Below are positions 29,483 to 63,728 of a stretch of 64,000 nucleotides of DNA, one piece after another. Location of the stretch: NCBI GenBank assembly GCA_016793095.1, contig JAEUJQ010000050.1, positions 310,001 through 374,000 on the forward strand. Direction: 5' to 3'. The notes beneath the pieces were generated by a model. The model searched no databases. It was not told the origin of the DNA and worked only from the letters and a program-made list of their open reading frames with translations. How positions within the stretch are numbered: the first letter of the stretch is position 1; every line of letters begins with the position of its first letter. Origin of the DNA: Myxococcaceae bacterium (GTDB lineage Bacteria > Myxococcota > Myxococcia > Myxococcales > Myxococcaceae). The position numbers were made by a program, and so were the translations under genes.

Positions 29483-30016
29483 TCACTTCGCCGGCGGGTG
29501 CTTCTGCAGCTTCCGCTGGAGCGACCTGCGGTGCAGTCCCAGCCGCCGCGCCGCCTCCGAGATGTTGTTGTCCACGTCGGCCAGCACCCGCTGAATGTAC
29601 TCCCACTCGGCGCGGGCGAGGCTCGGCGTCTCGGCCGGCTCCGCGGGCATCGCTCCGCCCATCAAGGCCTGCACCACCGCGTCGGCGTCGGTGGGCTTCG
29701 AGAGGTACGCGACCGCGCCCAGCTTCGTCGCCTGCACCGCCGTCGGAATCGAGCCGTACCCCGTCAGCATCACCGCGCGCGTGCCCGGGTCCTTCGCGTG
29801 CAGCGCCTCGAGCAGCACGAGCCCCGACGCGCCGCCCATGCGCAGGTCCACCACCGCGTACTCGGGGGCCTCGGTCATCAGCGCGAGCGTCTCCTCCACC
29901 GACGCGAACGTCGTCACCGCGAAGCCGCGCTCCTGCAGGGCCCGGCCGAGCCGCGTGCGGAAGGCCTCGTCGTCGTCCACGAGGAAGAGGGTGGGCTGCT
30001 GCTCCTGTTGCGTCAT
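29483..30016 (-). CDS. regA: Response regulator of the RegA/PrrA type
   Basis: 177 residues from the ATG at 30016, overlapping the sensor's stop by 4 nt. Receiver features: acidic cluster FLVDDDEAFRTRL (Asp13-15), phospho-acceptor Asp56 (AVVDLRMGG), VMLTGYGS and LSKP (Lys). A short Pro-Ala linker leads to a Fis-type helix-turn-helix, NNISEAARRLGLHRRSLQRKLQKHPPAK, the layout of the RegA/PrrA/ActR family with the conserved 'RRSLQRKL'. Such regulators control respiration and nitrogen-oxide genes according to redox state, which fits the adjacent denitrification genes. Targets are not proven. Confidence 0.85.
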   Translation of the reverse strand: MTQQEQQPTLFLVDDDEAFRTRLGRALQERGFAVTTFASVEETLALMTEAPEYAVVDLRMGGASGLVLLEALHAKDPGTRAVMLTGYGSIPTAVQATKLGAVAYLSKPTDADAVVQALMGGAMPAEPAETPSLARAEWEYIQRVLADVDNNISEAARRLGLHRRSLQRKLQKHPPAK

Positions 30017-31263
30017 GACGACTCCTGCGCCTGGGGAATGGTGAAGCTGGCCACCGTTCCAGCGCCGGGCTTCGACTCGAAGGTGAGCGAGCCGCCGAGC
30101 TGGTGCGCCAGCGTGCGCGCGAGGAAGACGCCGAGCCCCAGGCCCTTCCCGACGGGCTTGGTGGTGAAGAACGGCTCTCCCAGTCGCTTCACCGCCTGCG
30201 CGTCGATGCCGGGGCCGTGGTCTCTCACCGAGAGCGTGACGGTGGCGCCCTGTGCGACGGCGCTCAGCTCGACGGGGCCGGTGGACGCCTCGAGCGCGTT
30301 CTTCACCAGGTTCCGGAGCGCCTGCGCGAGCGCGACGCGGGGGCCGGTGACGTCCAGGGCGAGGTGCGCCGGAAGCACCACGCGCGCCCTCGCCGTGAGC
30401 CCCGAGACGGCCTCCTCGAGCCAGGCGTCGAGGGGGAAGGTGGTGAGGGCCTCGCCAGCGAGCTCGCCCGAGCGCGTGGACATGCTCTGCAGAATGGCCC
30501 GGCAGCGCTCGACCTGCTCGCGCACCAGGCGCGCGTCGTCCTTGAGGGCGTCGGGCACGGGGAGCTTCTCGAGCGCGCGCGACATCTCGCTCGAGGCGAC
30601 CGCGATGGTGCCCAGCGGCGTGGCGAGCTCGTGCGCCGCGCCGGCCGCGAGAGTGGTGAGGGCCGCGAGCTTCTCGTGCTGGGCCGACAGCCGACGCGCC
30701 TCGGCCAGCTGCGCCTCCTGGGCCCGGAGAGAGTCGAGCACCCGCTGCACGAAGTAGACGATGAAGCCCGCCGCCACCACGAAGGCGAGCCACATGCCGG
30801 TGAGGTGCAGGCGCATCAGCTCCTGGTGGTTGGGCAGTCGCCACGCGGCCGGCGCCACCTTGTCCACGAGGAAGAGCGACGCGAAGGCGAGCAGCGTCGC
30901 GCCGAGCTGCAGCCACTGCCTCAGGCGAGACAGCACCAGCGCGCCCAGCACGATGTTGACGAGGTAGAGCGCCGTGAAGGGGTTGAACGGCCCGCCGCTC
31001 AACGCGAACACCCCCGTGTGGAGCGCGGTGTCGAGCAGCATGAGCGCGAGCAGCCGGTTCTCCGAGACGCCCCGGCGCTGCCACCACCACGCGAGCCCGT
31101 CGGACGCGAAGCCCACGCCGACGAGCATCAGCACCCACGTCACCTGCAGGTGAATGCCCAGGCCCCGGGACGCCCAGAGCAGCAGCGCGAGCTGGCAGAC
31201 CCAGACCGCCCGCCGCACCCAGCGGAACCAGGGCAGCGAGATGTCGAGCGCGCCGGAGTGCAT
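30013..31263 (-). CDS. regB: Redox-sensing histidine kinase of the RegB/PrrB type
   Basis: 416 residues from the ATG at 31263 (AGAGGACG upstream). Five to six membrane helices in residues 20-175 include GGPFNPF at 90-96, the quinone-binding signature of RegB. The H-box is LAAGAAHELATPLGTI with His211, followed by N (NLVKNAL), G1 (DHGPGID), F (EPFFTT) and G2 (GKGLGLGV) boxes, so a kinase core is complete. The redox-active Cys known from the RegB H-box linker is not visible here. It is transcribed with regA and away from the hemerythrin gene. It should sense quinone redox state and phosphorylate RegA. Confidence 0.85.
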   Translation of the reverse strand: MHSGALDISLPWFRWVRRAVWVCQLALLLWASRGLGIHLQVTWVLMLVGVGFASDGLAWWWQRRGVSENRLLALMLLDTALHTGVFALSGGPFNPFTALYLVNIVLGALVLSRLRQWLQLGATLLAFASLFLVDKVAPAAWRLPNHQELMRLHLTGMWLAFVVAAGFIVYFVQRVLDSLRAQEAQLAEARRLSAQHEKLAALTTLAAGAAHELATPLGTIAVASSEMSRALEKLPVPDALKDDARLVREQVERCRAILQSMSTRSGELAGEALTTFPLDAWLEEAVSGLTARARVVLPAHLALDVTGPRVALAQALRNLVKNALEASTGPVELSAVAQGATVTLSVRDHGPGIDAQAVKRLGEPFFTTKPVGKGLGLGVFLARTLAHQLGGSLTFESKPGAGTVASFTIPQAQESS

Positions 31264-31837: not shown

Positions 31838-31869
31838 CTGTTCCGTTCCGGAACGTGCCAGAACGGAAC
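31838..31869. promoter_or_regulatory. Candidate operator (repeated inverted half-sites) before the activator gene
   Basis: A run of half-sites GTTC-x-GTTC-x then GGAAC and GAACGGAAC forms a near-symmetric element directly before the ATG at 31871. It contains the perfect palindrome CGTTCCGGAACG (31844-31855) and the arms GTTCCGTTC (31840-31848) / GAACGGAAC (31861-31869). Its core CTGTTCCGTTCCGGAACGT matches elements at 46698-46716 and 61213-61231. Autoregulation is likely but inferred. Confidence 0.6.
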
Positions 31870-31870
31870 C

Positions 31871-32902
31871 ATGTCGTGCGAGACGCCGTTCGAGTCGGGT
31901 GGGCAGCTGTGTCGGGTGTGTCGTGGGAACAAGCCCATCGGCGGGGCCCGCTTCTGCTCGCGGCTGGTGGTGAAGAGCGCTCCGATGCAGGCGTTGCTCC
32001 CGCGGATGGCGACGGTGGCGAACACCGACGCCTCGGTGGTGCTGCGCGGCGAGAGCGGCTCGGGGAAAGAAGTCATCGCCCGCGCCATTCACGCCAACAG
32101 CGCCCGGCGCGCGAAGCCGTTCGTGGCGGTGAACTGCGCGGCGCTCCCCTCGGAGCTGCTCGAGTCAGAGCTGTTCGGTCACGCGCGCGGGGCCTTCACC
32201 GGCGCGAACTCGGCGCGCAAGGGCCTGTTCGAGACGGCCGACGGCGGCACGCTGTTCCTCGATGAGATTGCCGAGATGCCGCTGGCGCTGCAGGCGAAGC
32301 TCTTGCGCGCCCTGCAGGACGGGGAGATTCGGCGCGTCGGTGAGAGCCAGCCGTTTCAGGTGGACGTGCGCCTCTTGTGCGCGACCCACCAGCACCTGCA
32401 GACGTCGGTGCAGGAGGGCCGGTTCCGCGAGGACCTCTACTTCCGGCTCAAGGTGTTCACGCTCGTCGTGCCGCCGCTCCGGGAGCGCCGTGAGGACATT
32501 CCCCTGCTGGCCGACATCTTCCTCGAGCTCGAGAACCACGCGACCCGACGCATCACGCCCCTGGCGATGAAGGCGCTGCTCGCCTACCAGTGGCCGGGGA
32601 ACGTGCGTGAGCTCGCGAACGCGATGAAGCACGGCGCCGTGCTGTCGGGCCAGTCGGACGTGGACCTCGAGCACCTGCCCGAGGAGCTCGCGGAGCGGAT
32701 GCCGTCGGTCGCGCCGATTCGTGCCCCTGCCCTGTCGTCGAGCCCCGCCTTGCTCGAGTCGCTCGCGCAGGTGGAGCGCCGCCACATCACCGACGTGCTC
32801 CGGGCGTGCGGGGGCAAGTCGAGCGACGCCGCCCGGGTGCTCGGCATCGGCCGCACCACGCTGTGGCGGAAGATGAAGGAATACGGCCTCGCGGAGGGAT
32901 GA
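31871..32902 (+). CDS. Sigma-54-dependent activator with an N-terminal four-Cys module
   Basis: 343 residues from the ATG at 31871. The AAA+ domain is complete: Walker A GESGSGKE (60-67), GAFTGA (107-112, the sigma-54 contact loop), Walker [13 protein letters not shown] (125-136), arginine-rich FREDLYFRL and [10 protein letters not shown] Fis-type helix-turn-helix ends it ([23 protein letters not shown]). There is no GAF, PAS or receiver domain; the 38-residue N-terminus carries Cys3, Cys14, Cys17 and Cys29. These could bind a metal or Fe-S cluster and act as the sensor. Position before nosZ and the operator-like sites near nitrogen-oxide genes suggest an NO-linked role comparable to NorR, which is inference. 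Confidence 0.82.
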
Positions 32903-33080
32903 GTCGTTCTCCCGAAAAGCCCGCGTTTCCTTGCGCCTCGTCAATTCAGGCGCGCAGACCTTGCGTTCCAATCTGAGACGGTGGGTCGCGTGCCTCTGAT
33001 CCGCCGCGGGTACGCCACATGCACACGGGCTGCGACGAAACGCCGCACGCTTGCGGCCTTCATGACCAAGGGAGGTCACC

Positions 33081-35357
33081 ATGCAGTTTGGAAAGAAGCG
33101 GCTTCTGGCCGTCGGGCTGGCGGTCGTCGCGGCGACGGCGTGGGCCGGCGAGTCGCTCCAGGACGTGCTCAAGCGGCGCGGGCTCACTCAGCAGGACCTG
33201 TTGGCAGCGGCGAAGACGTACGTGCCGACGGGGAAGCGCGACGACTTCATCGCCTTCTCCTCAGGCGGGCAGTCGGGACAGGTCATCGTCTACGGCATCC
33301 CCTCGATGCGCATCTTGAAGTACCTCGCGGTCTTCACGCCCGAGCCGTGGCAGGGCTACGGCTTCGATGAGGAGTCGAAGAAGATCCTGAAGGACGGCGC
33401 CATCGGCGGCAAGGACATCACCTGGGGCGACACGCACCACCCGGCCATCTCCGAGACGAACGGCGACTACGACGGCCAGTTCCTCTTCATCAACGACAAG
33501 GCGAACCCGCGCATCGCGGTCATCGACCTCAAGGACTTCGAGACGAAGCAGATCGTCACCAACCCCGTGTACAAGAATGAGCACGGCGGCGCGTTCGTGA
33601 CGCCGAACAGCGAGTACGTGCTCGAGGCCGCGCAGTACGCGGCGCCGCTCGAGAACGGCTACGTGCCCCTCGACCAGTTCAACGAGAAGTACCGCGGCGG
33701 CCTCACCTACTGGAAGTTCGACCGCACGAAGGGCCGCATCAACCCGGCCGAGTCGTTCTCGTTCGAGCTGCCGCCGTACAGCCAGGACCTGTCGGACTCG
33801 GGCAAGGGTCCGTCGGACGGCTGGGGCTTCACCAACTCGTTCTGCTCCGAGCGCTACGTCGGCGGCATCGAGCTCGGCCGCCCGCCGTTCGAGGCCGGCT
33901 GCTCGGCGAAGGACACGGACTTCCTGCACATCACCAACTGGAAGAAGGCCGCCGAGCTGGTGAAGGCGGGCAAGGCGAAGAAGATCAACGGGCACAACGT
34001 CATCCCCATCGACGTGGCGGTGAAGGAAGGCATCCTCTTCCTCGTGCCTGAGCCGAAGAGCCCGCACGGCTGCGACGTCACGCCCGACGGCAAGTACATC
34101 ATCGTCTCAGGCAAGCTCGACACGCACACGATGGTCTACTCGTTCGACAAGATTCAGGAGGCCATCAAGGCGAACAAGTTCGAGGGCAAGGACCCGTACG
34201 GCATTCCCATCATCGGGATGAAGGACGCGCTCCACAAGCAGGTCGAGCTCGGCCTCGGGCCCCTGCACACGCAGTACGACTCGAAGCCGTGCATCGGCTA
34301 CACCTCGATGTACGTCGATTCGCAGGTCGCCAAGTGGGACTACTGCGAGGGCAAGGTGCTCGACAAGCTGTCGGTGCACTACAACATCGGCCACCTGATG
34401 ACGATGGAGGGCGACTCCACCAAGCCGAAGGGCCGCTACCTGGTCGCGCTGAACAAGCTGGCCATCGACCGCTTCAACCCGGTGGGCCCGCTGCACCCGC
34501 AGAACCACCAGCTCATCGACATCTCGAACGACAAGATGCAGCTGCTCTACGACATGCCGCTGCCGCTGGGTGAGCCGCACTACGCGGTGGCCATCAGCGC
34601 GAGCACCCTGAAGCCGGGCGTTCGGTACAAGGTGGGCACCAACAGCCGCACCGACGAGAAGCACCCGGGCGCGGTCCGTGCCGGCGAAGAGAAGATCGTT
34701 CGCTCGCCGGGCAAGGTCGAGGTCTTCGGCACCCTCATCCGCTCGCACATCACCCCGGAGATCATCGAGGTCGAGAAGGGCGACGAGGTGACCATCAACC
34801 TCACCAACCTCGAGCGCGCGCAGGACGAGACGCACGGCTTCACCATCAGCGCGATGAACGTGCACGCCTCGGTCGAGCCCGGCAAGACGGTCTCGGTGAA
34901 GTTCAAGGCCGACCGCGAGGGCGTGTTCCCGTACTACTGCACCGAGTTCTGCTCGGCGCTGCACCTCGAGATGCAGGGCTACTTCCTGGTGAAGCCGAAG
35001 GGCTACAAGGCGACCGCCGCGGCCGCTGCGAAGGCCGAGTACACGAAGGCCGACTACGACAAGCAGTACAAGTCGTGCGTGGACACGCAGGCCGTCATCG
35101 ACAGCGTGGTGGCGTGGATCACCTCGACCAACTTCAAGGACTTCCCCGACGCGGTCGCGCTCGTCGAAGACGCCACCGACCAGCTCAAGGCCGCCGAGGA
35201 CCCGAAGAAGAAGATGGAAGAGGCCGCCAAGAAAGAAGACTGGCAGAACGCGACGCTGTGGGCTGGCCAGTGGTGGCAGTACCAGGTGAAGGCCGCCGAC
35301 ATCGGTCTGCGCGCGAAGACGTACCTCGAGCAGAAGGGCGCGAAGAAGCTCAAGTAA
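33081..35357 (+). CDS. nosZ: Nitrous oxide reductase, clade II (Sec-exported)
   Basis: 758 residues from the ATG at 33081 with AAGGGAGG upstream. The signal peptide MQFGKKRLLAVGLAVVAATAWA lacks twin Arg, a clade II trait. The propeller shows the CuZ histidines (DTHHPAISETNGDYDG, PKSPHGCDVTPDG, GPLHTQYDSK, HYNIGHLMTMEGD, GPLHPQNHQLID, EPHYAVAI). The CuA site is CTEFCSALHLEM with Cys620, Cys624, His628 and Met631, plus His in ETHGFTI. About 115 residues extend past the usual end (TAAAAAKAEYTKADYDKQYKSC onwards); no CxxCH haem motif is in it. It reduces N2O to N2 in the periplasm. Confidence 0.96.
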   Translation: MQFGKKRLLAVGLAVVAATAWAGESLQDVLKRRGLTQQDLLAAAKTYVPTGKRDDFIAFSSGGQSGQVIVYGIPSMRILKYLAVFTPEPWQGYGFDEESKKILKDGAIGGKDITWGDTHHPAISETNGDYDGQFLFINDKANPRIAVIDLKDFETKQIVTNPVYKNEHGGAFVTPNSEYVLEAAQYAAPLENGYVPLDQFNEKYRGGLTYWKFDRTKGRINPAESFSFELPPYSQDLSDSGKGPSDGWGFTNSFCSERYVGGIELGRPPFEAGCSAKDTDFLHITNWKKAAELVKAGKAKKINGHNVIPIDVAVKEGILFLVPEPKSPHGCDVTPDGKYIIVSGKLDTHTMVYSFDKIQEAIKANKFEGKDPYGIPIIGMKDALHKQVELGLGPLHTQYDSKPCIGYTSMYVDSQVAKWDYCEGKVLDKLSVHYNIGHLMTMEGDSTKPKGRYLVALNKLAIDRFNPVGPLHPQNHQLIDISNDKMQLLYDMPLPLGEPHYAVAISASTLKPGVRYKVGTNSRTDEKHPGAVRAGEEKIVRSPGKVEVFGTLIRSHITPEIIEVEKGDEVTINLTNLERAQDETHGFTISAMNVHASVEPGKTVSVKFKADREGVFPYYCTEFCSALHLEMQGYFLVKPKGYKATAAAAAKAEYTKADYDKQYKSCVDTQAVIDSVVAWITSTNFKDFPDAVALVEDATDQLKAAEDPKKKMEEAAKKEDWQNATLWAGQWWQYQVKAADIGLRAKTYLEQKGAKKLK

Positions 35358-39970: not shown

Positions 39971-41004
39971 ATCGCACGCTCGACCAGCTCCGCATCTTGT
40001 TCGGTGGAGAACCCAGGAAGCCCGCGCCCGACGAGTTCACCGCCGGCGCCCGCCGCATCCACGACACCAAGAAGCTCACCAAGCAGTACTTCCTCGACCT
40101 GGCCGAGCGCGAGGCCGCGGCGCGGAAGAAGCAGGCGTGGAAGAAGCGCCGCTGGGCAGTGCTGCTCACGGTCAACCTGCTCTTCGTGCTGTCGTACTGG
40201 GTGGACGTGCAGCTCGTCGAGGGGTCGCTCACCGGCAGCCGGGCCCTCGGCTTCCACCTGATCGACCTGAACGCCGCGCTCGGGTTGATGCTCGCGCACA
40301 AGCACCTCATCGTGAACCTGCTCATCGGCACCGCGACGGTGGGCGTGATGTGGTTCCTGCTCGGGGGCCGCAGCTTCTGCTCGTGGGTCTGCCCGTACCA
40401 CTTCGTGTCCGAGTGGGCGGAGAAGCTGCACCTCTTCCTCGCCGAGAAGAAGCTGGTGAAGGACCACCCGCTGCACCGCGGCCTGCGCACGGTCGTGTGG
40501 GCGACCTTCGCGCTGCTGGCGTACGCGACGGGCTACACGGTGTACGAGACCATCTCGCCGACCGGCATCCTCTCTCGCGCGCTCATCTACGGGCCGGGGC
40601 TCGCGCTGTTGTGGGTCGTCGCGCTGCTCGCCTTCGAGGTGCTGTACTCGCGGCGCGCCTGGTGCCGGTACCTCTGCCCCATCGGGCTCACCTACGGCGT
40701 CGTCGGCACGTTCTCGCCGGTGAAGGTCCACTACGACCTGTCCCGCTGCGCGCACGAGGGCGAGTGCCGCAAGGTGTGCCTGGTGCCGCACGTGCTCGAC
40801 CACATCACGAAGGGTCGGGCGACCTCCGAGCACCTCGACGTCGGGCCCGACTGCACGCGCTGCGGCGCCTGCGTCGATGTCTGCCCTGGCGGGGCGCTCT
40901 CATTCTCGGTCGTCGGCGTCACCCGGAAGCTGCCTGAGTACCCGTTCCCGACGAAGCCGCCGCCCGCTGTGCCAGACCCGAAGCCGCCCGAAGGGACCGC
41001 CTGA
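39967..41004 (+). CDS. nosH: NosH, membrane ferredoxin/quinol dehydrogenase (NapH-like)
   Basis: 345 residues from the GTG overlapping the nosG stop (an ATG 12 nt earlier is possible). Four membrane helices are visible (WAVLLTVNLLFVLSYWVDVQL, LIVNLLIGTATVGVMWFLLGG, VVWATFALLAYATGYTVYE, LLWVVALLAFEVLY). The family motifs CSWVCPY and CRYLCPIG face the cytoplasm. Two ferredoxin motifs follow at the C-terminus (CAHEGECRKVC and CTRCGACVDVCPGGAL). The protein ends in a Pro-rich tail. It should oxidise menaquinol and pass electrons to NosG. The stop overlaps the nosF start (TGATG). Confidence 0.9.
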   Translation: MNRTLDQLRILFGGEPRKPAPDEFTAGARRIHDTKKLTKQYFLDLAEREAAARKKQAWKKRRWAVLLTVNLLFVLSYWVDVQLVEGSLTGSRALGFHLIDLNAALGLMLAHKHLIVNLLIGTATVGVMWFLLGGRSFCSWVCPYHFVSEWAEKLHLFLAEKKLVKDHPLHRGLRTVVWATFALLAYATGYTVYETISPTGILSRALIYGPGLALLWVVALLAFEVLYSRRAWCRYLCPIGLTYGVVGTFSPVKVHYDLSRCAHEGECRKVCLVPHVLDHITKGRATSEHLDVGPDCTRCGACVDVCPGGALSFSVVGVTRKLPEYPFPTKPPPAVPDPKPPEGTA

Positions 41005-41879
41005 TGATTCGCCTCAAAGCGCTCACCAAGGTGTTCAAGAAGCTCAAGGTCCTCGACGCCCTCGAGCTGAGCGTCGAGCAGGGCGAGCGCATCGCGCTGG
41101 TCGGCTCCAACGGCGCCGGCAAGACGACGATGATCCGCTGCATCCTCGGCGAGTACACCTTCGGCGGGGCGGTGGAGATCGCCGGCAAGAGCCCGCGCGC
41201 AGCCCGCAGCGAGGTGCTCAAGAAGGTGGGCTTCGTGCCGCAGCTGCCGCCGCCGCTGAAGATGCCGGTGAAGGAGCTGCTGCGCTTCTCGGCCGCCGTC
41301 TCGGGGACGAAGGTGGCCGCCATCGAGGCCATCGCCACGCGCCTGGGCCTCGACGTGAAGGCCTTCGCGCACCAGCCCTTCTTCAAGCTGTCGGGCGGCC
41401 AGAAGCAGAAGCTGCTCATCGCCATCGCGTTGGGGCGCGACGCCGAGCTGCTCATCATGGACGAGCCGGCCGCGAACCTCGACCCCGAGGCGCGGCACGT
41501 CTTCTTCTCGCTGCTGTCCGAGCGCGCGGCGAAGGCGACGATGATCATCTCGAGCCATCGCCTCGACGAGGTGGCCGCGCTGGTGAACCGCGTCATCGAG
41601 CTCGACCGCGGCAAGGTGGTGCTGGACGACCGGGTGGCCGACGCGCCGCTCTCGACGTCGCTCGCGTGCAAGGTGGCGCTGCGCCGCGCCGACCCGGCCA
41701 TCGCGAAGGCGCTGCGCGAGTGGGGCTTCACGGACGTGGGCGGCGGGCTCGAGTGGACGGGCCTCGTCGCCGGCGCCGACCGGCTGCGCTTCATGGGCAT
41801 GCTGTCGCGGTACGTCGGTCTGCTGGTGCGCGTCGGCATGGAGGAGCAGGAAGGCCCCGCGCTGAGGGTGGTGTCATGA
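41004..41879 (+). CDS. nosF: NosF, ABC transporter ATPase
   Basis: 291 residues from the ATG overlapping the nosH stop. ABC ATPase motifs are complete: Walker A VGSNGAGKTTM, Q-loop FVPQLP, signature KLSGGQKQKLLIAIALG, Walker B LLIMDEPAANLD and H-switch ISSHRLDEV. It powers the NosY permease in delivering sulphur-containing precursor for the CuZ centre. The C-terminal 80 residues are unremarkable. About 200 nt separate it from the lipoprotein nosL, an unusually loose spacing for a cluster otherwise packed by overlaps. Confidence 0.93.
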   Translation: MIRLKALTKVFKKLKVLDALELSVEQGERIALVGSNGAGKTTMIRCILGEYTFGGAVEIAGKSPRAARSEVLKKVGFVPQLPPPLKMPVKELLRFSAAVSGTKVAAIEAIATRLGLDVKAFAHQPFFKLSGGQKQKLLIAIALGRDAELLIMDEPAANLDPEARHVFFSLLSERAAKATMIISSHRLDEVAALVNRVIELDRGKVVLDDRVADAPLSTSLACKVALRRADPAIAKALREWGFTDVGGGLEWTGLVAGADRLRFMGMLSRYVGLLVRVGMEEQEGPALRVVS

Positions 41880-42082
41880 CGAGCCGGCCAGCCGGCGCGC
41901 TCACGATGACGAGCGCTGCCTCTGCGCGGGATGAACAGCCGCGGCGTGCCGGGGCTCGAGACGTGCGCGGCCAGGGCCAGCACGAGAGCACGAGCGCGAG
42001 CCGACCCGGGCAGGAGCGCGCTGCCCACGGCGGCGCTCAGGCGTGGGTGCGCGGGGTGCCACGAGTCGGCGCCGACGCCAGC

Positions 42083-42520
42083 GTGAAGGCGCCCGGCGCC
42101 GCGGTGAGGCGCGTCACGGCGGCGGCGCTGCTCTGCCTCGTCGCCTGCACGCAGGATGGCGACGGCCCCGCGCGGGTGGTGTGGGACCGCGACGTCTGCA
42201 AGGCGTGCAGCATGGTCATCTCGGACCGGCACTTCGCGGCGCAGGTGCGGGGCGGGCCGAAGAACGCGGTGGCGAAGTTCGACGACCTCGGCTGCATGAT
42301 GAAGTGGCTCGACCAGCAGCCCTGGGCCGACGAGCCGGCGACGAGGATCTGGGTCACCCGGCAGCAGGACGGCGAGTGGCTCGACGGCCGAACGGCCCGG
42401 TACGTGAGCGGCAGGACCTCGCCGATGGGCTTCAACTTCGGCGCGGTGGACCCGGGCGCCGAGGGCAACGACTTCGCGGCCCAGCGCGCCGCGGTGCGGG
42501 CGTTCGCGACGAAGCGATGA
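42083..42520 (+). CDS. nosL: NosL, copper-binding lipoprotein chaperone
   Basis: 145 residues if a GTG at 42083 is used (a GTG at 42104 would also give a signal; the frame is open to 41876). The signal VKAPGAAVRRVTAAALLCLVAC ends in a lipobox. The copper motif is CKACSMVISDRHFAAQV, i.e. Cys-x-Met as in NosL, with AVAKFDDLGCMMKWL and MGFNFGA typical of the family. NosL delivers Cu(I) to apo-NosZ. The 200 nt before it read as an unlikely Arg/Ser-rich stretch without sign of a gene. Confidence 0.86.
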   Translation: MKAPGAAVRRVTAAALLCLVACTQDGDGPARVVWDRDVCKACSMVISDRHFAAQVRGGPKNAVAKFDDLGCMMKWLDQQPWADEPATRIWVTRQQDGEWLDGRTARYVSGRTSPMGFNFGAVDPGAEGNDFAAQRAAVRAFATKR

Positions 42521-43358: not shown

Positions 43359-43429
43359 GCGCTCCGAGGGCGCCGGCAACGTCGCTGCACCGGGGGCGGG
43401 GCGACGCTCCGGTCGCGGCGTGCTGGTTT

Positions 43430-46785: not shown

Positions 46786-47544
46786 ATGACCTCAGCGGGG
46801 GCGCTCGAAGACCTCGGGGAGCGATGGGCGCGAGCCCGCCGGGCGGCGCTGCGGTCGGTCGCCGGAGAACGCAAAGGGGAAGAGGACGACGCCCTCGCGG
46901 CGCGGGCCTTCGAGGTGGACGCGCTCGAGGCCGCGCGGGTGATGTTCGACAACAGCCTCCTGCTGGGCAAGGGCTTCCGCCGCCACCACGGCCCGGTCCC
47001 CTTCGCCGAGCTCGGCCGGGCGCTCGAGGCGCTGGGCGGCCCCTGTCTGCGCGGGCGGTGGCAGGCGCACCCTCGCGAGGCCGCGTTCGTGCTCGAGCGC
47101 GGGCCATGTCACGGCGGCTGCGAGGCGGTCTGCGACGCCTGGCGCGAAGCGCTCGACGGGCTGGTGCTGGGCGTCTCGGGTGAAGGCCGCGCCACCCGCC
47201 ACCGCAGCGGCGGCCACGGCGACGGCGCCTGCGTCGACGTCATCTACCTCGACCCCGAGAGCCTCCTGCGCTTCGGCTTCATCCCCGACGAGCTGCGCGA
47301 GGGCCTCGACGCGGTCGCGCGCTTCCTCAACGGCCTCAAGGGCACCCGCGTGCGCTTCCTCGGCGTGTCCGAAGGCGTGCTCGCCTACGAGCTCGAGGTC
47401 GATGGCTGCGGCGGCACCGAGGCCGTGACGGCGCTCCTCACCCGCGCCGTGGCCGCGCGCTGGCCTGCGCTGCGCGTGCGCGACGTCTCGCCCCGCTCTC
47501 CCTTCGAACGCCCTGAGTCCCCACCTGTGCTGGAGGTCCCATGA
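46786..47544 (+). CDS. Cys-containing protein of unknown function, first gene of the molybdoenzyme operon
   Basis: 252 residues from the ATG at 46786. No family is recognised. It is cytosolic in appearance. Sequence features include MFDNSLLLGKGFRRHHGPVPFAELG, then ERGPCHGGCEAVCDAWREALDG with three close Cys, and RSGGHGDGACVDVIYLDP with one more. This CxxxC-xxx-C plus Cys pattern could bind a metal or cluster, as in some 4-vinyl-reductase-type (V4R) sensors, though that link is weak. The stop overlaps the ATG of the molybdoenzyme alpha-subunit gene, so translation is coupled; a role in its assembly or NO sensing is a guess. Confidence 0.65.
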   Translation: MTSAGALEDLGERWARARRAALRSVAGERKGEEDDALAARAFEVDALEAARVMFDNSLLLGKGFRRHHGPVPFAELGRALEALGGPCLRGRWQAHPREAAFVLERGPCHGGCEAVCDAWREALDGLVLGVSGEGRATRHRSGGHGDGACVDVIYLDPESLLRFGFIPDELREGLDAVARFLNGLKGTRVRFLGVSEGVLAYELEVDGCGGTEAVTALLTRAVAARWPALRVRDVSPRSPFERPESPPVLEVP

Positions 47545-50500: not shown

Positions 50501-51005
50501 GAGCGACCGGCCGTACCGTAACTGGAAGGCGGGCACCGAGGCGTACCAGGTCGCCCGGCTGCTGTTGCGCGTGCGCTACTACCCCGGCACGCCCCGCCGC
50601 GTCACCCGCACCTGGCACAACATGTACGGCGCGTCGTTCGGCTCCGTCAAAGGCTCACAGACGCGGCCAGACGGGCTCGCGAAGAACCCCATCACCAACT
50701 ACCAGGCCATGTACCGGACTGGCAGCCACCAATCGGCCACCCGCGCGTGGCTGCGGCCGACGCTGATGACCGAGACGCTCGTCCACAAGGACATGTTCGG
50801 CCAGGTGCTGATGAAGGGCTTCGCGCCCGACATCCACTGCCCGGTCGGCGCGCCCCGCGAGGCGTTCGTGAAGTTCACGAAGGTGGAGGAGGGCGGGCTC
50901 AACGGCAAGGGCCTGTGGCGGCCGGCCGCGCTGGGTCTGCGGCCCACGTACGAGCGCGAGGGTATGAAGACGTACCTCGCGGGACAGTTCGTCAAGACCA
51001 GCTGA
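47541..51005 (+). CDS. NarG/NxrA-like molybdopterin oxidoreductase, alpha subunit (type II DMSO reductase family)
   Basis: 1154 residues starting [20 protein letters not shown], with a Tat signal (KRRAVLQG), so it is periplasmic. The FS0 motif reads C-x3-D-x3-C-x39-C (Cys70, Asp74, Cys78, Cys118); most relatives have H/C-x3-C-x3-C. The Mo ligand Asp278 is in [11 protein letters not shown], the Nar/NXR pattern. [26 protein letters not shown] is a further conserved segment. Length matches NarG and NxrA rather than the roughly 900-residue selenate or chlorate reductases. With Fe-S, haem-b and chaperone genes following, the enzyme likely reduces nitrate or oxidises nitrite; direction and substrate are not decided by sequence. 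Confidence 0.85.
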   Translation: [1154 protein letters not shown]

Positions 51006-51075
51006 GCTGAACAACCACCCCAGCGGAGCGGCCCGGAGCCGGAGGCGAAGTGGGGGCTGCAGCGGAGCGAATGAC

Positions 51076-52209
51076 ATGAGCACGGTGAAGAACTGGCAGC
51101 TGAAGCGCGACATGGCGTACGCCTACGACGAGGCCCGGCCGAAGCGGCAGTGGGCCATCGTCTTCGACCTGAACAAGTGCATCGCGTGTCAGACCTGTAC
51201 GCTCGCATGCAAGACGACCTGGACCAGCGGCAAGGGCCAGGAGTACATGTTCTGGAATAACGTCGAGACGAAGCCCTTCGGCAGCTACCCGCTGGGCTGG
51301 GACGTCAACGTGCTCGAGAAGCTCGGGCAGCAGGACTGGGCGAAGAACGGCGCCTACCAGGGCAAGACCATCTTCGAGGCGGCGCCGGCGGAAGAGCGCG
51401 CGGTGCACTTCAACCCCGCCGACGAAGACTGGATGTACCCGAACCACGGGGAAGACGACTGCGTGGGCGCCCAGAACGGCGGCGGGCACGTCGGCTCGCT
51501 GCCGCACGACAAGTGGTTCTTCTACCTGCCGCGCACCTGCGCGCACTGCACCTACCCTGCGTGCCTGGCGGCCTGCCCGCGCAAGGCCATCTACAAGCGT
51601 GAGGAGGACGGCATCGTCCTCATCGACCAGTCCCGCTGCAAGGGCTACGGCGAGTGCGTGCGGGCCTGCCCGTACAAGAAGTCGATGTACAACCCATACA
51701 CCCGCGTGTCCGAGAAGTGCGTCGGCTGCTACCCGGCCGTCGAGCAGGGCATTCAGCCGCAGTGTGTCGTCAACTGCATCGGCAAGATTCGCGTGATGGG
51801 CTTCATCAGCCCGCCCTGGAAGGCGCGCAAAGACAACCCCATCGACTACCTCGTGCACACGAAGGGCGTCGCGCTGCCGTACTACCCGCAGCTCGGCCTC
51901 GAGCCGAACATCTATTACATCCCTCCCATCCACGCCGACCGCGCGTACCTGCGGCAGATGTTCGGGCCGCTCGTCGACGGCGCCATCGAGCGCTACCGCA
52001 CCCTCGCGAAGGACCCGACCACCGCGGGGCTGCTCACGCTCATCGGCTCCACCGACCGCATCATGCACAGGTTCACCGTCGACAAGGGCATGGCCACCGG
52101 CTTCGACGACCGCGACGCCGAGTTGGTGAAGGTGCCCGTCATCGAGCCCGTCATCGAGCGGCCCGCGTACGACGAGAAGCTCGAGACCATTCGCAACAAC
52201 ACGCCGTGA
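51076..52209 (+). CDS. Molybdoenzyme beta subunit with four Fe-S clusters (NarH/NxrB-like)
   Basis: 377 residues from the ATG at 51076 (GGAGCGAATGAC upstream). Four Cys groups are visible: KCIACQTCTLACKTTW, CAHCTYPACLAACPRKA, CKGYGECVRACPYKK and CVGCYPAVEQGIQPQCVVNCIG. In the third, Tyr stands where NarH has Trp and most ferredoxins Cys, so a [3Fe-4S] cluster is likely, as in the family. It has no signal peptide and should travel with the alpha subunit by Tat. It passes electrons between the Mo site and the haem-b subunit. Confidence 0.9.
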   Translation: MSTVKNWQLKRDMAYAYDEARPKRQWAIVFDLNKCIACQTCTLACKTTWTSGKGQEYMFWNNVETKPFGSYPLGWDVNVLEKLGQQDWAKNGAYQGKTIFEAAPAEERAVHFNPADEDWMYPNHGEDDCVGAQNGGGHVGSLPHDKWFFYLPRTCAHCTYPACLAACPRKAIYKREEDGIVLIDQSRCKGYGECVRACPYKKSMYNPYTRVSEKCVGCYPAVEQGIQPQCVVNCIGKIRVMGFISPPWKARKDNPIDYLVHTKGVALPYYPQLGLEPNIYYIPPIHADRAYLRQMFGPLVDGAIERYRTLAKDPTTAGLLTLIGSTDRIMHRFTVDKGMATGFDDRDAELVKVPVIEPVIERPAYDEKLETIRNNTP

Positions 52210-52223
52210 CCTCCGGAGCCCCC

Positions 52224-53069
52224 ATGCGCCTGGCCCTCCTCCCGCTGTGCTTCGTCGCCACCGCCGCCCTCGCGCAGGACCTCGAGGTGCGCGCGGTGAA
52301 GGCCGACCTCTCGAAAGACGACCCCGCCGCCGCCTACTGGGCCGGCGCTCCCGAGGTGAACGTGTCGCTCATCGGGCAGCCCATGGTGGTGCCACGCCCC
52401 TCGACCACCACCACCGCCAACCTCACCGTGCAGGCCGTGCACGACGGCAAGCGCGTCGCCTTCCGCCTGCGCTGGAGCGACAAGGACAAGAGCGAGGCCG
52501 GCCCGCTCGGGAAGTTCTCCGACGCCGCCGCCATTCAGTTCCCCGCTGGCAACCCCGAGTTCCCTCCGCCGGTGATGATGGGCGCGAAGGGCCTGCCGGT
52601 GCACCTCTTCCACTGGCGCGCGCAGTACCAGCGCGACCGCGAGAAGGGGAAGCCGACGATGAAGGACCTGTACCCGAACGGCTCCGTGGACATCTACCCG
52701 ATGGAGTTCCCCACGGAGGAGGCGAACAAGGGCCTCTCGGAGAAGGACCAGGAGAAGTTCTCGCCCGCCCGCGCCGAGGGCAACCCGCAGGCGTACTCGA
52801 AGACGGGGGTGGATGAGATCATCGCCGAGGGCTTCAGCACCTCGCAGGTGCAGGAGGGCCACACGAGCTCGGGCACCGGGGTGTGGAAGGACGGCGCGTG
52901 GACGCTCGTCATCTCACGGCCGCTCGCCATCGAGGGCGGCTCCATGCTCAAGCCCGGCGGCAAGAGCTTCGCCGCCTTCGCCATCTGGCAGGGCGACGAG
53001 GGTGAGGTGGGCAGCCGCAAGTGCCTCACCATGGCGTGGAGCAACCTGCTGGTGAAGGAGGGCCCGTGA
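52224..53069 (+). CDS. Haem-b binding gamma subunit (EBDH/selenate-reductase type)
   Basis: 281 residues from the ATG at 52224. A signal peptide (MRLALLPLCFVATAALAQ) shows it is exported separately by Sec. The mature part matches the ethylbenzene-dehydrogenase/DMS-dehydrogenase gamma domain: VRAVKADLSKDDPAAAYWAGAPEVNVSLIGQ, GKRVAFRLRWSDKDKSE, SGTGVWKDGAWTLVISRPL and FAAFAIWQGDEGEVG. These proteins bind one b haem with Met and Lys as ligands and pass electrons to cytochromes c. The stop overlaps the chaperone start by 4 nt. Confidence 0.86.
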   Translation: MRLALLPLCFVATAALAQDLEVRAVKADLSKDDPAAAYWAGAPEVNVSLIGQPMVVPRPSTTTTANLTVQAVHDGKRVAFRLRWSDKDKSEAGPLGKFSDAAAIQFPAGNPEFPPPVMMGAKGLPVHLFHWRAQYQRDREKGKPTMKDLYPNGSVDIYPMEFPTEEANKGLSEKDQEKFSPARAEGNPQAYSKTGVDEIIAEGFSTSQVQEGHTSSGTGVWKDGAWTLVISRPLAIEGGSMLKPGGKSFAAFAIWQGDEGEVGSRKCLTMAWSNLLVKEGP

Positions 53070-53761
53070 GCGTCGAGGCCCTCGAGGACCGGGCGCTGGA
53101 CTTCGCGCTCGCCGCGGCGGTGTCGGGCTACCCGGCCGCGACGTTCCACCAGCGGCTCGCCACGGTGCTCGAGGTGAAGCCCGCCGACTGGGCCGCTCCG
53201 CTGCTGCACGCCTCGGCCAGCACCGCGGGGCTCGCGCAGTTGCAGGCGTCGTTCCTCGCGGCCTTCGAGGTCGGCGCTGGTCGGGTGCCGCTCCACGAGA
53301 CCGAGTACGGGCGCTCGGCGGGCATGTCGAAGGGCAACGACCTTGCCGACCTCGCCGGCTTCTACAAGGCGTACGCGCTCGAGCTGAACGCCGACGAGGG
53401 CGACCACGAGCTGTACGACCACCTGAGCGTCGAGCTCGAGTTCTACACCTCGCTGCTCGCGCGGCAGGCGCTCCTCACGCAGCAGGGCGACGCCGAGGGC
53501 CTCGAGGTAGTGGAGGCGACCCGCAAGAGCTTCCTCCGCGACCACCTCGGCCGGCTGGCGCTCGCGCTCCAGGCCCACGCGCGGCTCGACCCGGAGTCTG
53601 CCTGGGCGCCCGCCTTGAGAGCCACCCTCGACCTCGTCGCTGCCGAGTGCGCGTCGCTCGGGGTTGCGCCGGCGCCGCTCGACCTCTCCCTCGCGCCCGA
53701 GGCCCCTGAGGTGTCCTGCGCGGTGAACCTCAACCCACCGGGAGGGCGGGCCGAGCGCTGA
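53066..53761 (+). CDS. Molybdoenzyme-specific chaperone (TorD/DmsD/NarJ-like)
   Basis: 231 residues from a GTG overlapping the gamma subunit stop. It is helical, with the usual chaperone phrase HETEYGRSAGMSKGNDLADLAGFYKAYALE (the Ebd/Ser delta subfamily has 'YE...F...DLAGFY.AFG') and DHLSVELEFYTSLLARQALL. There is no signal peptide, so it is cytosolic. It would bind the alpha-subunit Tat signal and hold the protein until the Mo cofactor is inserted. Its C-terminal 40 residues are variable. Confidence 0.84.
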   Translation: MSVEALEDRALDFALAAAVSGYPAATFHQRLATVLEVKPADWAAPLLHASASTAGLAQLQASFLAAFEVGAGRVPLHETEYGRSAGMSKGNDLADLAGFYKAYALELNADEGDHELYDHLSVELEFYTSLLARQALLTQQGDAEGLEVVEATRKSFLRDHLGRLALALQAHARLDPESAWAPALRATLDLVAAECASLGVAPAPLDLSLAPEAPEVSCAVNLNPPGGRAER

Positions 53762-60129: not shown

Positions 60130-61194
60130 ATGAAGCCGCGCCCCAATCGTTCACGCCCGCGAACCGCTGGAGCTCTCGAGCCCGCGCCCGTGAGCACGGC
60201 GCACGTCCTGACGACGGTGGCCGTGCTCGTCACGCTCGCCCTCGGAGCCGTGATGCGGCTGTCCCTCGCGGGCCTCCTGACGCTGCCGCTCGACTTTCAC
60301 CACCTGCGCCACGCGCACTCCCACCTCGGCGCGTACGGCGTGCTGTTCCCGCTCGCGTTCCTCGCCTGGCGCGCCCGTGGAGCGCCTGTTCCGGGCGCGC
60401 GCGAGTCCCTCGCCTATGCGCTGGCCACCACGCTCGCCTTCGCTGGCTTCCTGCGCGCAGGCTACGGACCGGAGGCCATCGTCGGCAGCACCATCGTCGG
60501 CGCCTCGTGGCTCGCGAGCGCCTTCCGCCTCCGCGCCGCCGTGAGGCGCTTCGATGACCCGCTCGCGCTCGTGCCGCCCGGCATCGTCGCGGCGATGGCG
60601 TGCGTGCCCTTCATCGCGCTCACGCTGAGGCGAGACCCGGCGCTCGCACAGCAGCTGGTCGCCACCTTCCTCGGCGCGTTGCTGCTCGTGGTCGTCACCC
60701 CGTCGGCGCTCGCGTCGCTCGGCGTGCGAGCCTGGCCCACACCACTCCTGACGGTGGCCGGCCTCGCGGGCGCGGCGGCGCTGGGGGTGTGGCCGTCGCC
60801 CGTCGCGCGCCTCGGCCTCGCGCTCTACGCCCTGTGGCTCGCGTCCGCCGCGAGGGAGCGGTCGCTCGGCTGGTCGATCCGCCTCTCCTGGCTCCTCGTC
60901 GGCCTGGGCCTGCTCGCGATGGCCGCCGGGGTGGTGCCCAACGCCCGCCCCGCCGTCATCGGCGCCATTCACTTCCTCGTGCTGGGGCCGGTGCTGCTCA
61001 GCCTCGCGCCCCGCAGGTGGCCCATCGTCACCCGCCTCGCGACCCCACCGCTCCTCGTCGCGCTCTCCCTCCACTCGGGCGCGCTCGTGCTGCAGGCGTT
61101 CGAGGCCGCTCCCTGGAGCCTGGCGGCCGCGGCTCTCGGCGGCCTCCTCGCCGTCGCGTGGTGGGCCATCGCCGCGCTCTGGCCGGAGCGCTGA
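60130..61194 (+). CDS. Polytopic membrane protein related in style to 54771-55850
   Basis: 354 residues from the ATG at 60130. About ten membrane helices, with a His-rich entrance between helices 1 and 2 (FHHLRHAHSHLGAYGVLFPLAF). Other segments include IVAAMACVPFIALTLRRD, LLVVVTPSALASLGV and VIGAIHFLVLGPVLLSLAPRRWP. The HHLRHAHSHLG phrase could ligate a haem or copper. A family name is not recognised; NnrS-like or haem-copper-oxidase-subunit-like proteins have comparable layouts. A sigma-54-type site was looked for upstream without success. Confidence 0.72.
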   Translation: MKPRPNRSRPRTAGALEPAPVSTAHVLTTVAVLVTLALGAVMRLSLAGLLTLPLDFHHLRHAHSHLGAYGVLFPLAFLAWRARGAPVPGARESLAYALATTLAFAGFLRAGYGPEAIVGSTIVGASWLASAFRLRAAVRRFDDPLALVPPGIVAAMACVPFIALTLRRDPALAQQLVATFLGALLLVVVTPSALASLGVRAWPTPLLTVAGLAGAAALGVWPSPVARLGLALYALWLASAARERSLGWSIRLSWLLVGLGLLAMAAGVVPNARPAVIGAIHFLVLGPVLLSLAPRRWPIVTRLATPPLLVALSLHSGALVLQAFEAAPWSLAAAALGGLLAVAWWAIAALWPER

Positions 61195-61231: not shown

Positions 61232-61365
61232 CATCGACCCGACCCCTTGCAGGGCCTGCAGCCCCGCGGCGCTCGAACCGGCCTCTCGCGCACAAGCTGC
61301 ACCATCGGCCCTTCAGGACCTGAGAAGCGCGTTCGTCACCTGCGACATCGTGTCGCAGCGCTCGC

Positions 61366-61394: not shown

Positions 61395-62315
61395 ATGACG
61401 GTGCGCGGGCTCCTCGTGGTGCTGGTGGTGCTGGCGATGACGCCGGCCCGGGCGCGCGCGGCAGCGTGTTGCGTGTCCGCGACGGCCTTCGGGGTCGGCC
61501 GCCTGCTGGCCTGGGAGGACTTCGCGCTGGGCGTGCAGGTGGGCCACACCCGCGTGCTGGGGCAGTACGACGCGAACCGCTCGCTGCGCCTGTTCCAGCC
61601 GGGAGAGTTCGCTGATGGCCTCACGCGCGTCGAGCCGTGGGCCATCGTGCGCCTCGCGGAGCGCGTGCAGGTGCAGGCCCGCGTGCCGGTGGTGGTGAAC
61701 GACCGCGCCGCGGGCGGTCTGTCGCAGCTCGCCAGTGGGCTGGGAGACGTTGGCGCGGCGGTGCGCGTCGAGGCCATCTCGCTCGGAGAGTACGAGCGGC
61801 TTCCCTCGCTTGGCTTCACCCTGGGCGTGCTGGCGCCGACGGGCCGGCGGGCCGAGCAGGCGTTTCTGCCCCTCGGCGCAGGCGTCACCGGCCGCGGCGC
61901 GTGGGGCGCCTCGCTCGCGTTGGAGAGCGAGTACACGTGGCTGCCCTGGTACGTGCGGCTCGACGCCGGCGTCACCGTCTACGCCCCGTTCCGTCGCGCC
62001 GACACGGGCGCCTCGCAGTGGTACGGGCCCATCGTGCAGGCGGCGCTCTCGAGCGGCCGTGAGCTGGTTCCCGACAAGCTGGTGCTCGCCCTGTCGGCGC
62101 AGCTCGAGTGGGAAGCGCCGCTGCGGCTCGACGGCGAGGTGGTGGGGACGTCGAGCGCGCTGCTCCCTTCGCTGCTCGCCTCTCTGTCGTGGCGGGTGCA
62201 CCCCCACTGGACCCTCGTCACCAGCGTCGCCGCCAGTGTGTGGCCCGGCGGGCTGGCGCAGAACCGCGACGCCCGCCTCGGCGTCCTCATCGGAGGTCGC
62301 TATGGCCACTTCTGA
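61395..62315 (+). CDS. Outer-membrane beta-barrel protein
   Basis: 306 residues from the ATG at 61395. Signal peptide MTVRGLLVVLVVLAMTPARARA. The mature protein shows alternating hydrophobic strands typical of a small barrel (WAIVRLAERVQVQARVPVVV, LGFTLGVLAPTGRR, WGASLALESEYTWLPWYVRLDAGVTVY, LVLALSAQLEWEAPLR), ending RLGVLIGGRYGHF with the aromatic terminal residue usual for outer-membrane proteins. It has a close Cys pair (AACCVS) after the signal. The next gene starts 14 nt before its stop, so they are translated together. Confidence 0.8.
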   Translation: MTVRGLLVVLVVLAMTPARARAAACCVSATAFGVGRLLAWEDFALGVQVGHTRVLGQYDANRSLRLFQPGEFADGLTRVEPWAIVRLAERVQVQARVPVVVNDRAAGGLSQLASGLGDVGAAVRVEAISLGEYERLPSLGFTLGVLAPTGRRAEQAFLPLGAGVTGRGAWGASLALESEYTWLPWYVRLDAGVTVYAPFRRADTGASQWYGPIVQAALSSGRELVPDKLVLALSAQLEWEAPLRLDGEVVGTSSALLPSLLASLSWRVHPHWTLVTSVAASVWPGGLAQNRDARLGVLIGGRYGHF

Positions 62316-62937
62316 GGCGCTGGCCACGTCCAGGGCGCTGCTCCTCTCAGCCGCCGTCCTGGCCGGGTGCGCGGGGACGAGCGGCGCGACGCGCACGGCC
62401 GAGAGCTCCGCGGTGGTGCTGCGGGCTCCCGTGGGTGCGGAGTCCACCACCCTCGCGGCGCTCACCTCGTCACGGCAGGCCACGGTGCTCGTCTTCTGGA
62501 GCAGCGGCTGCCCGTGTGTCCGGCGCTACCAGGCGCGCGTCGAGGCCTTCGCCGAGCGCTACGCCTCGCGGGACGTGCAGGTGCTCGCCGTCTCGAGCAA
62601 CGCGGGCGAGCCGTTCGAAGAGGCGCTCTCGGTGGCCAGGGAGCGCGGCGTCCGGGTGCCCCTGTTGCGTGACGACGGGGGCGAGGTGGCGAAGCTGGTC
62701 GGCGCGCGCAGTACCCCCACCGTCGCGCTGCTCGACCGCTCCGGCGCCGTGCGCTTCGTCGGCTGGCTGGACAACGAGCGTGAGCCGGGCGTGGAGGGTC
62801 GTGAGGCGTGGCTCGAGCAGGCAGTCGAAGGCGTGCTGGGCGGCGGCTCCTTCGCGAAGCGCACCCCGACGTGGGGCTGCCCCATCACCCGTTCGCTGTC
62901 GTCCGTCGAACCCAGGCGCTGTGAAGCAGCGCATTGA
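62302..62937 (+). CDS. Thioredoxin-like redoxin lipoprotein
   Basis: 211 residues from an ATG within the last 14 nt of the barrel gene. Signal MATSEALATSRALLLSAAVLAGC ends in a lipobox. The thioredoxin fold contains ATVLVFWSSGCPCVRRYQARVEAF, in which the redox motif is CPC rather than the CxxC of TlpA; VQVLAVSSNAG and ARSTPTVALLDRSGAVRFVGWLD are typical of AhpC/TSA-TlpA types. The cis-Pro (STPT) is present. It probably works in disulphide or copper chemistry in the periplasm. The C-terminus has a lone Cys (TWGCPIT). Confidence 0.82.
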   Translation: MATSEALATSRALLLSAAVLAGCAGTSGATRTAESSAVVLRAPVGAESTTLAALTSSRQATVLVFWSSGCPCVRRYQARVEAFAERYASRDVQVLAVSSNAGEPFEEALSVARERGVRVPLLRDDGGEVAKLVGARSTPTVALLDRSGAVRFVGWLDNEREPGVEGREAWLEQAVEGVLGGGSFAKRTPTWGCPITRSLSSVEPRRCEAAH

Positions 62938-62951
62938 CTCAGGGAGAAGCC

Positions 62952-63728
62952 ATGCACCGTCTGTCGTCGCTGTTCCTCGTCCTCGTCCTCGCAGCCTGTG
63001 GGCCCGCCCCCTCGACTCCAGCGCCTCGCACCGTGCTCGGCACGGCCACGGTGGACACGTTGAGCGGTGAGCTCTCGACGAGCGCCCGGCTCTCGATGGG
63101 GCTCTCCACCGTGTGGATGAAGCTCACGGACAACGGCGCCCCGGTGACCGACGCCGCCGTGATGTTGATGCCGGTGATGACGATGCCGACGAAGTCGCAC
63201 GCGTGCCCCGTGGTGGGCGAGGTGGTGCACCAGGGCGGCGGCGTCTACCGCGGCCAGCTCGTCTTCCAGATGGCGAGCGCCGACATGGGCACCTGGACGC
63301 TCGGCGTGAAGGTGACGCGCGGCGGAGTCGAGAAGAAGCTGTCGTTCGACGTCGTCGTGGGCGACGGCTCGTCCGTGCACAGCTTCACGGTCGCGGACCC
63401 GAACAACGCGGCGATGATGAAGCGCTACGTGATGAGCGTCTCGTTCCCCGAGGGCGCGAAGGTGGGCCTCAACAAGGTGCTCGTCACCCTGCACCGCATG
63501 CAGGACATGATGACGTTCCCCGCGTTCGACGACGCGTCCTTCGAGATGGTGCCCGAGATGCCGGCGCATGGGCACGGCTCACCCAACAACGTCGCCCCCA
63601 CGCTGGTCGCGCCAGGCCGGTACGAGGGCACGGTGAACTTCACGATGCCCGGCGAGTGGAAGACGACCTTCACCGTGAAGGCGGCCGGCGCGGTGATGAC
63701 GTCGAAGGCGTTCGACACCACCCTCTGA
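62952..63728 (+). CDS. YtkA/FixH-like lipoprotein
   Basis: 258 residues from the ATG at 62952 (GGGAGAAG upstream). Signal MHRLSSLFLVLVLAAC. Two Ig-like YtkA-type domains are seen: VWMKLTDNGAPVTDAAVMLMPVMTMPTKSHACP...VYRGQLVFQMASADMGTWTLGVKV and MSVSFPEGAKVGLNKVLVTLHRMQDM...RYEGTVNFTMPGEWKTTFTV. The Met- and His-rich text (MLMPVMTMPTKSH, MVPEMPAHGHG) suggests copper binding. With the barrel and redoxin this looks like a metal-handling or assembly module for a periplasmic copper enzyme. The role is inferred from composition and neighbours. Confidence 0.78.
   Translation: MHRLSSLFLVLVLAACGPAPSTPAPRTVLGTATVDTLSGELSTSARLSMGLSTVWMKLTDNGAPVTDAAVMLMPVMTMPTKSHACPVVGEVVHQGGGVYRGQLVFQMASADMGTWTLGVKVTRGGVEKKLSFDVVVGDGSSVHSFTVADPNNAAMMKRYVMSVSFPEGAKVGLNKVLVTLHRMQDMMTFPAFDDASFEMVPEMPAHGHGSPNNVAPTLVAPGRYEGTVNFTMPGEWKTTFTVKAAGAVMTSKAFDTTL

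Follow-up and report, generated by a model that had tools for sequence, protein, structure and literature searches.

Nitrous-oxide reductase (NosZ) removes the greenhouse gas N2O and needs copper, and two sources, in their available parts, leave unsettled both how this copper passes the outer membrane and which protein builds the CuA site of the enzyme (PMC8610252, PMC6530538). The outer-membrane copper transporter NosA/OprC has been proposed to feed NosZ, a role described as disputed in the accessible text of PMC8610252, where a nosA knockout without effect is cited, and the lipoprotein NosL supplies NosZ as the copper chaperone for CuZ (PMC6530538, available part). In Bacillus subtilis, the YtkA protein CtaK works with Sco in CuA assembly, as given in the excerpts of PMC13344008 and PMC9145763; beyond the YtkA proteins of Bacillus, none had been studied by experiment according to the accessible portion of a 2025 paper (PMC12362106), which mentions nitrous oxide solely among its references. 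A literature search that reached a minority of subscription papers found no paper joining YtkA to NosZ. Among two-component systems, RegR of Bradyrhizobium binds the nosR promoter, for which two RegR boxes are given, and controls a regulon that includes nos and copCAB genes (PMC4064962), and the RegA regulon of Rhodobacter capsulatus lists nos genes (PMC5359404), in each case as found in the available part of the paper.

Here we analyze a 64,000-nucleotide stretch of DNA (the window), which spans positions 310001-374000 of contig C90 in genome G000 (assembly 8.8 Mb; window GC 70%) and carries genes for an outer-membrane barrel, a CPC redoxin, and a double-YtkA lipoprotein arranged head to tail. 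This module is a new combination of known parts. It is like CtaK/Sco of B. subtilis in joining a YtkA lipoprotein to a thioredoxin-fold lipoprotein, there on a CuA site, and NosZ also has a CuA-type site; it differs in having two YtkA domains, an outer-membrane barrel, and a CPC redoxin whose Pfam matches up to E 0.1 do not include SCO1-SenC (PF02630). Compared with NosA/OprC, likewise an outer-membrane protein proposed for NosZ copper supply, the barrel has 306 aa and a modeled fold like FapF and a COG4313 channel rather than that of a TonB-dependent receptor with a plug domain, and no TonB-dependent receptor is present among the 50 fold matches listed for the model. NosL is also a lipoprotein copper supply to NosZ but is encoded by a separate gene; we rejected the idea that the module replaces NosL, because nosL itself is present in the window and ends at 42520. 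Finally, a kinase/regulator pair related to RegB/RegA, PrrB/PrrA, and RegS/RegR lies beside nos in the window, and differs from those systems in that the putative binding site is a tight 17-bp palindrome with few sites per genome and that the pair falls below the curated family cut-offs.

Results

The three genes of the module

The original prediction described a small outer-membrane barrel overlapping a lipoprotein with a CPC thioredoxin motif and followed by a YtkA-like protein, and all three open reading frames lie where it placed them (61395-62315, 62302-62937, and 62952-63728). The features of this region are as follows.

60130..61194, plus strand: multi-pass membrane protein upstream of the barrel gene, NnrS-like by eye
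61395..62315, plus strand: 306-aa outer-membrane beta-barrel with AACC after the signal peptide, ATG at 61395
62302..62937, plus strand: 211-aa lipoprotein redoxin with a GCPC motif and with C193 and C207 conserved (Redoxin/AhpC-TSA match and alignment)
62952..63728, plus strand: lipoprotein with two YtkA domains, 258 aa (Pfam YtkA)

The membrane protein encoded at 60130..61194 is without a Pfam or NCBIfam match, and a similar protein also precedes the barrel in genomes G006 and G004. The barrel sits at the predicted position and overlaps the lipoprotein gene: the redoxin ATG at 62302 gives a 14 bp overlap, with a GGAGG within the last barrel codons, and the overlap recurs in seven of seven loci compared. 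Two vicinal cysteines, C25 and C26 in the barrel of the window, follow the signal peptide in all 30 barrels that reach this part of the protein; the 31st is truncated at the edge of its contig. The best PDB fold matches of the barrel model (pLDDT 74, moderate confidence, with five models that disagree and range from 74 to 39) are FapF and a COG4313 channel, the latter (4rl8) with E 1.6e-11 and a TM of 0.61 and ranking below FapF. Against Phenol_MetA_deg (PF13557) the barrel scores 17.1 bits, under the Pfam cut-off of 22, and the barrel relative of G050 is without a Pfam match. Spread of the barrel on plasmids was considered and rejected, as 72,556 plasmid records gave no tblastn match at E 1e-3.

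The CPC lipoprotein of the prediction is borne out by a GCPC motif (C70 and C72) and a lipobox cysteine at position 23, with further cysteines at 193 and 207. The protein passes the Pfam cut-offs for Redoxin (47.5 bits, cut-off 26.6) and AhpC-TSA (44.6 bits, cut-off 26) and is similar to PDB chains 3u5r, 2ywi, and 2cvb; the alignments to 3u5r and 2ywi take in the C-terminal GC-I motif. C70, P71, C72, C193, and C207 are invariant in an alignment of 12 sequences, and in a wider set of 20, C70 and C193 are found in every sequence and C72 in 17.

The third gene does encode a YtkA-like protein, with a match to YtkA (PF13115) of 63.1 bits (cut-off 25.9) and two stretches that each exceed the cut-off. 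We prefer ATG 62952 over TTG 62934 as its start because all aligned relatives start there. The protein had been called rich in Met and His; the first half of this description holds, with 18 Met in the 243 residues of the mature part, and the second is weak, with 6 His. It carries a lipobox and the motifs M-x-M...H-x-CPV and PEMPxHGHGS, and M76, M78, H83, C85, M203, P204, G207, and G209 are invariant over 11 sequences. Its structure model consists of two Ig-like domains (pLDDT 86.5).

Conservation of the module and its layouts

We annotated 31 loci with profiles built from the triad. The YtkA gene adjoins the barrel gene in 30 of these (the exception is L115) and the redoxin gene does so in 20, counts that speak to linkage and not to frequency, since the loci were picked for holding a barrel or a redoxin. 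The barrel, redoxin, and YtkA genes thus form a conserved module, which occurs in two layouts: barrel-(redoxin)-YtkA, with a YtkA protein mostly of ~260 aa, and a YtkA protein of ~140 aa followed by barrel-(redoxin). Relatives of the redoxin come from 13 named loci. The labels are Myxococcales, Myxococcaceae, Archangiaceae, Archangium, or Myxococcus for 11 of them, Glaciihabitans for one, and UBP1 for another, which places the window in Myxococcota. In the metagenome-assembled genome (MAG) labeled Glaciihabitans (L028), the module lies on a contig of 3.8 kb and may be misbinned; the record of a further carrier, Myxococcus sp. RHSTA-1-4, has no MAG label.

This partnership bears on a reading without any metal, in which the module would serve redox or nitrosative stress in the envelope, the redoxin detoxifying peroxide or NO products and the barrel moving a small molecule in or out. 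We regard this as quite improbable. The redoxin is similar to Redoxin/AhpC-TSA, the barrel fold is FapF-like, and an ScdA/hemerythrin-type neighbor and membrane proteins that are NnrS-like by eye would suit such a role; the near-constant partner in 30 of the 31 loci, however, is a YtkA protein, and those members of this domain that have been studied function in copper handling according to the available text of PMC12362106, and the operator described below is common to MbnP and YcnI-like genes in relatives.

The nos genes and candidate regulators in the window

The window also holds nos genes and a two-component pair.

29483..30016, minus strand: RegA/PrrA-like response regulator, a candidate to control the operator (best NCBIfam model NF033791, ActR/PrrA/RegA, 192.4 bits, below the cut-off of 250)
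30013..31263, minus strand: RegB/PrrB-like histidine kinase (best NCBIfam model NF033792, 225.5 bits, below the cut-off of 350)
31871..32902, plus strand: sigma-54 activator directly upstream of nosZ (Pfam Sigma54_activat, 240.6 bits)
33081..35357, plus strand: nosZ, clade II Sec-type nitrous-oxide reductase (TIGR04246, 909.7 bits, above the cut-off of 625)
41876..42520, plus strand: nosL, copper chaperone known for NosZ, with an uncertain start (24.5 bits to Pfam NosL against a cut-off of 24)

The NosZ of the window has a CTEFC motif, which we take to be of the CuA type. The end of nosL was taken from the open frame 40877..42520. A second NosD-like beta-helix protein follows nosY at 43355-44680 (the stretch chosen within the open frame 42587-44959). 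Directly before nosZ, 31305-32902 encodes a hemerythrin-like protein and the sigma-54 activator, which is short and has a Cys-rich start; activators of like kind are also found by nosZ in G006, G021, G043, and G050.

Three further features of the neighborhood are recorded here. A type II DMSO-reductase-family operon at 47541-53761 encodes a molybdoenzyme, an Fe-S subunit, an ethylbenzene-dehydrogenase-like heme b subunit, and a chaperone; it is nitrate-reductase-like, and none of its first three proteins reaches the cut-off of the NCBIfam models listed. The repeat GACACCCGATGTC is present in four copies at 24587-24889, spaced by 87 to 102 bp. A regulator that is Crp/Fnr-like by eye and has a Cys-rich start lies just beyond the end of the window (L012:8457-9236), ~2.7 kb downstream of the YtkA gene.

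A rare palindrome precedes the barrel gene and nosZ

An operator-like site shared with the molybdoenzyme operon had been proposed for the module. The site is present, but the partner with which it is shared is the nosZ promoter.

61341..61357, no strand assigned: operator TGCGACA-TCG-TGTCGCA, placed 37 bp upstream of the barrel ATG (pattern and matrix)
33031..33047, no strand assigned: matching operator TGCGACG-AAA-CGCCGCA, placed 33 bp upstream of the nosZ ATG (pattern and matrix)

The barrel operator is a perfect palindrome, CTGCGACA-TCG-TGTCGCAG, with a full extent of 61340-61358. Using a matrix built solely from sites of other genomes, which are orthologous promoters, we obtained scores of 23.2 for the site at 61341 and 22.4 for that at 33031, whereas the best scores in 20 Markov-shuffled windows run from 10.5 to 18.3. 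The third-ranking site of the window, 46521-46537, is the best match near the molybdoenzyme operon and scores 11.2, within this chance range, and sharing with that operon, examined by pattern as well as by matrix, was rejected. The operator GCGRC-N5-GYCGC resembles the RegA-type box GCGNC-Nx-GNCGC, and the loose form GCGNC-N5-GNCGC is uninformative in the window, with 17 matches against 26 expected.

Similar sites stand at similar distances upstream of the barrel in relatives and yield the consensus TGCGRCR-N3-YGYCGCA. Among 31 barrel upstream regions (two almost without upstream sequence and one of only 152 bp), a perfect site is found in six loci (G000, G001, G003, G004, G006, and G007) and a one-mismatch site in three more (G056, G151, and G183), nine of 31 in all, where 0.00 to 0.16 sites with up to two mismatches are expected per region; the perfect barrel matches arise partly by construction, because the consensus was widened after the barrel promoters of relatives and the 33031 site had been viewed, and orthologous promoters are non-independent samples. 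Once fixed, the pattern also picked up the nosZ sites of G001, G004, G006, G007, and G056. Over 20 nosZ loci, including that of the window and located by tblastn, six have a perfect site (G000 and these five) and G021 has a one-mismatch site, giving seven of 20, with no clear site in the other 13. Five genomes, G000, G001, G004, G006, and G007, carry a perfect site before both genes, and the 7.7 Mb of G001 contain no perfect sites other than those before the barrel and before nosZ.

Across ten genomes we counted 30 perfect sites: G000 contains eight, and the nine relatives have between 0 and 4 each. Since the reversed control pattern gives 84, there is no overall enrichment; the sites are instead concentrated. 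Eighteen of the 30 lie within ~75 bp of listed gene starts, six at nosZ, six at the barrel, two at a CPTC-motif barrel (G004 and G021), and one each at MbnP (G021), a YcnI-like gene (G056), a DUF4920 gene (G000), and the gap in G006 between a RegB-like kinase and the hemerythrin-activator-nosZ row. For seven of the other 12, an ORF of 100 codons or more begins no farther than 150 bp away, with no common theme visible.

The additional targets were inspected individually. The YcnI-like (DUF1775) gene of G056 stands with a divergent gene for a cytochrome-like lipoprotein. In G000, a perfect operator lies 57 bp before a gene for a Cys/His-rich, apparently secreted DUF4920 protein (L020:1501-2099, contig C15). 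A gene row headed by the palindrome occurs in G021 (L159:4532-9950) and G004 (L158:2-4379) and includes the CPTC-motif barrel and MbnP (249 and 266 bits). In G021 the row runs on one strand through the CPTC-barrel, MbnP, a di-heme cytochrome that is MauG-like by eye, and a RegB/RegA-like pair, with an operator before the first gene and another before the second; of this pair, the G004 sequence covered includes no more than the beginning of the kinase. MbnP exceeds its cut-off in three of the ten genomes (G003, G004, and G021), only two of which have a perfect site at MbnP; the G003 copy is without one, and no MbnP above the cut-off was found in G000. The CPTC-barrel/MbnP row of G021 and G004 may be a second unit of a copper regulon.

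We infer that the RegB/RegA-like pair is the candidate regulator of the palindrome. The breadth of targets also suits a general copper-acquisition system within a RegB/RegA-like, low-oxygen, or copper-starvation regulon, of which NosZ would be a fellow member that profits indirectly. The operator stands before CPTC-barrel, MbnP, YcnI-like, and DUF4920 genes, and the G021 row brings several of these parts together with the RegB/RegA-like pair. The distribution of the barrel across genomes bears on this reading from both sides.

The barrel tracks NosZ across Myxococcota

We searched 195 Myxococcota genomes for the close barrel family and for NosZ, each at E up to 1e-40. The barrel is found in 18 genomes (a fragment in G126) and clade II NosZ in 39; NosZ is present in 17 of the 18 barrel genomes, the exception being G015 (Fisher p 6.9e-13), and at the level of genera nine of 10 barrel genera have NosZ against 20 of 90 overall (p 2.1e-6), both being tests that correct only partly for descent. 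In the genus of the window, the module genomes G000, G001, G003, G004, and G006 all have NosZ, which in G003 is a fragment; both are missing from G002 and G005. Nine genomes have distant barrels only (E 1e-40 to 1e-15) and just one of these has NosZ, so the wider barrel family appears to serve something else.

The module is dispensable for NosZ in general, because 22 of the 39 NosZ genomes, including all six of genus g36, are without the close barrel family. Barrel and nosZ share a contig in six of 17 genomes (G000, G006, G021, G043, G050, and G111); they lie 26 kb apart in G000 and in one gene row in G006, and in G111 the contig-mate of nosZ is a third, more distant barrel paralog (E 2.1e-35). 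In the other 11 they lie on separate contigs. Both this separation and the 22 NosZ genomes are in keeping with a general copper regulon; against it, the barrel follows NosZ closely (17 of 18), while COX2 is present in 157 of 195 genomes. We judge the general regulon to be rather unlikely, and retain NosZ as the preferred recipient.

The same survey addresses whether the YtkA protein and redoxin might instead build the CuA site of cytochrome c oxidase, in the manner of CtaK and Sco from Bacillus. Such a role is known for YtkA/CtaK from the available parts of PMC13344008 and PMC9145763, and COX2 (PF00116) occurs in all 18 barrel genomes. Most of the 157 COX2 genomes, however, are without the module, and no oxidase gene was seen in three module flanks read by eye (L012, L023, and L026). 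A search of 11 genomes detected Sco in 10, and in G000 its gene lies ~2 kb from the COX2 gene (contig C7), for which reason the oxidase seems to have an assembly factor of its own. Given the spread of COX2 and the Sco gene beside it, the oxidase fits the pattern less well; it is disfavored as the target of the module, and we consider this reading very improbable.

Discussion

The original prediction proposed copper handling, perhaps for NosZ, and the computational evidence supports it, namely the co-occurrence of barrel and NosZ, the operator before both nosZ and the module, and the same operator before MbnP and YcnI-like genes. On balance, and with appreciable room for doubt, we think it likely from these patterns that the module supplies NosZ with copper, as an envelope route that would help to load nitrous-oxide reductase. 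The CuA center is probably the target within NosZ, and it is the most likely one because NosL, alongside which the module would act, serves CuZ.

Copper would pass from barrel to YtkA protein to redoxin to NosZ. The barrel may be a small outer-membrane channel whose vicinal cysteines after the signal peptide take up Cu(I) or gate its passage. The likely copper carrier is the double-YtkA lipoprotein, with its M-x-M...H-x-CPV and PEMPxHGHGS motifs, and the CPC redoxin could keep acceptor cysteines reduced or hand on copper, in the manner of TlpA- and Sco-type proteins at CuA sites. The module would act beside NosL, with NosL directed to CuZ and the module to CuA. We infer copper binding, the direction of transport, the CuA target, and RegB/RegA-like control from sequence and gene context. 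The complete line, in which a dicysteine barrel takes in copper, the double-YtkA protein carries it, and the redoxin prepares CuA, all co-induced with nosZ by way of a RegB/RegA-like palindrome that responds to copper or redox state and likewise controls MbnP and YcnI-like genes, is a possible but tentative proposal.

A module that tracks NosZ across Myxococcota and has a rare operator in common with it gives named candidate genes for steps of copper supply. If the proposal is true, a copper route to NosZ would extend the known roles of the YtkA domain, and Myxococcota would possess an undescribed copper line from the outer membrane to NosZ.
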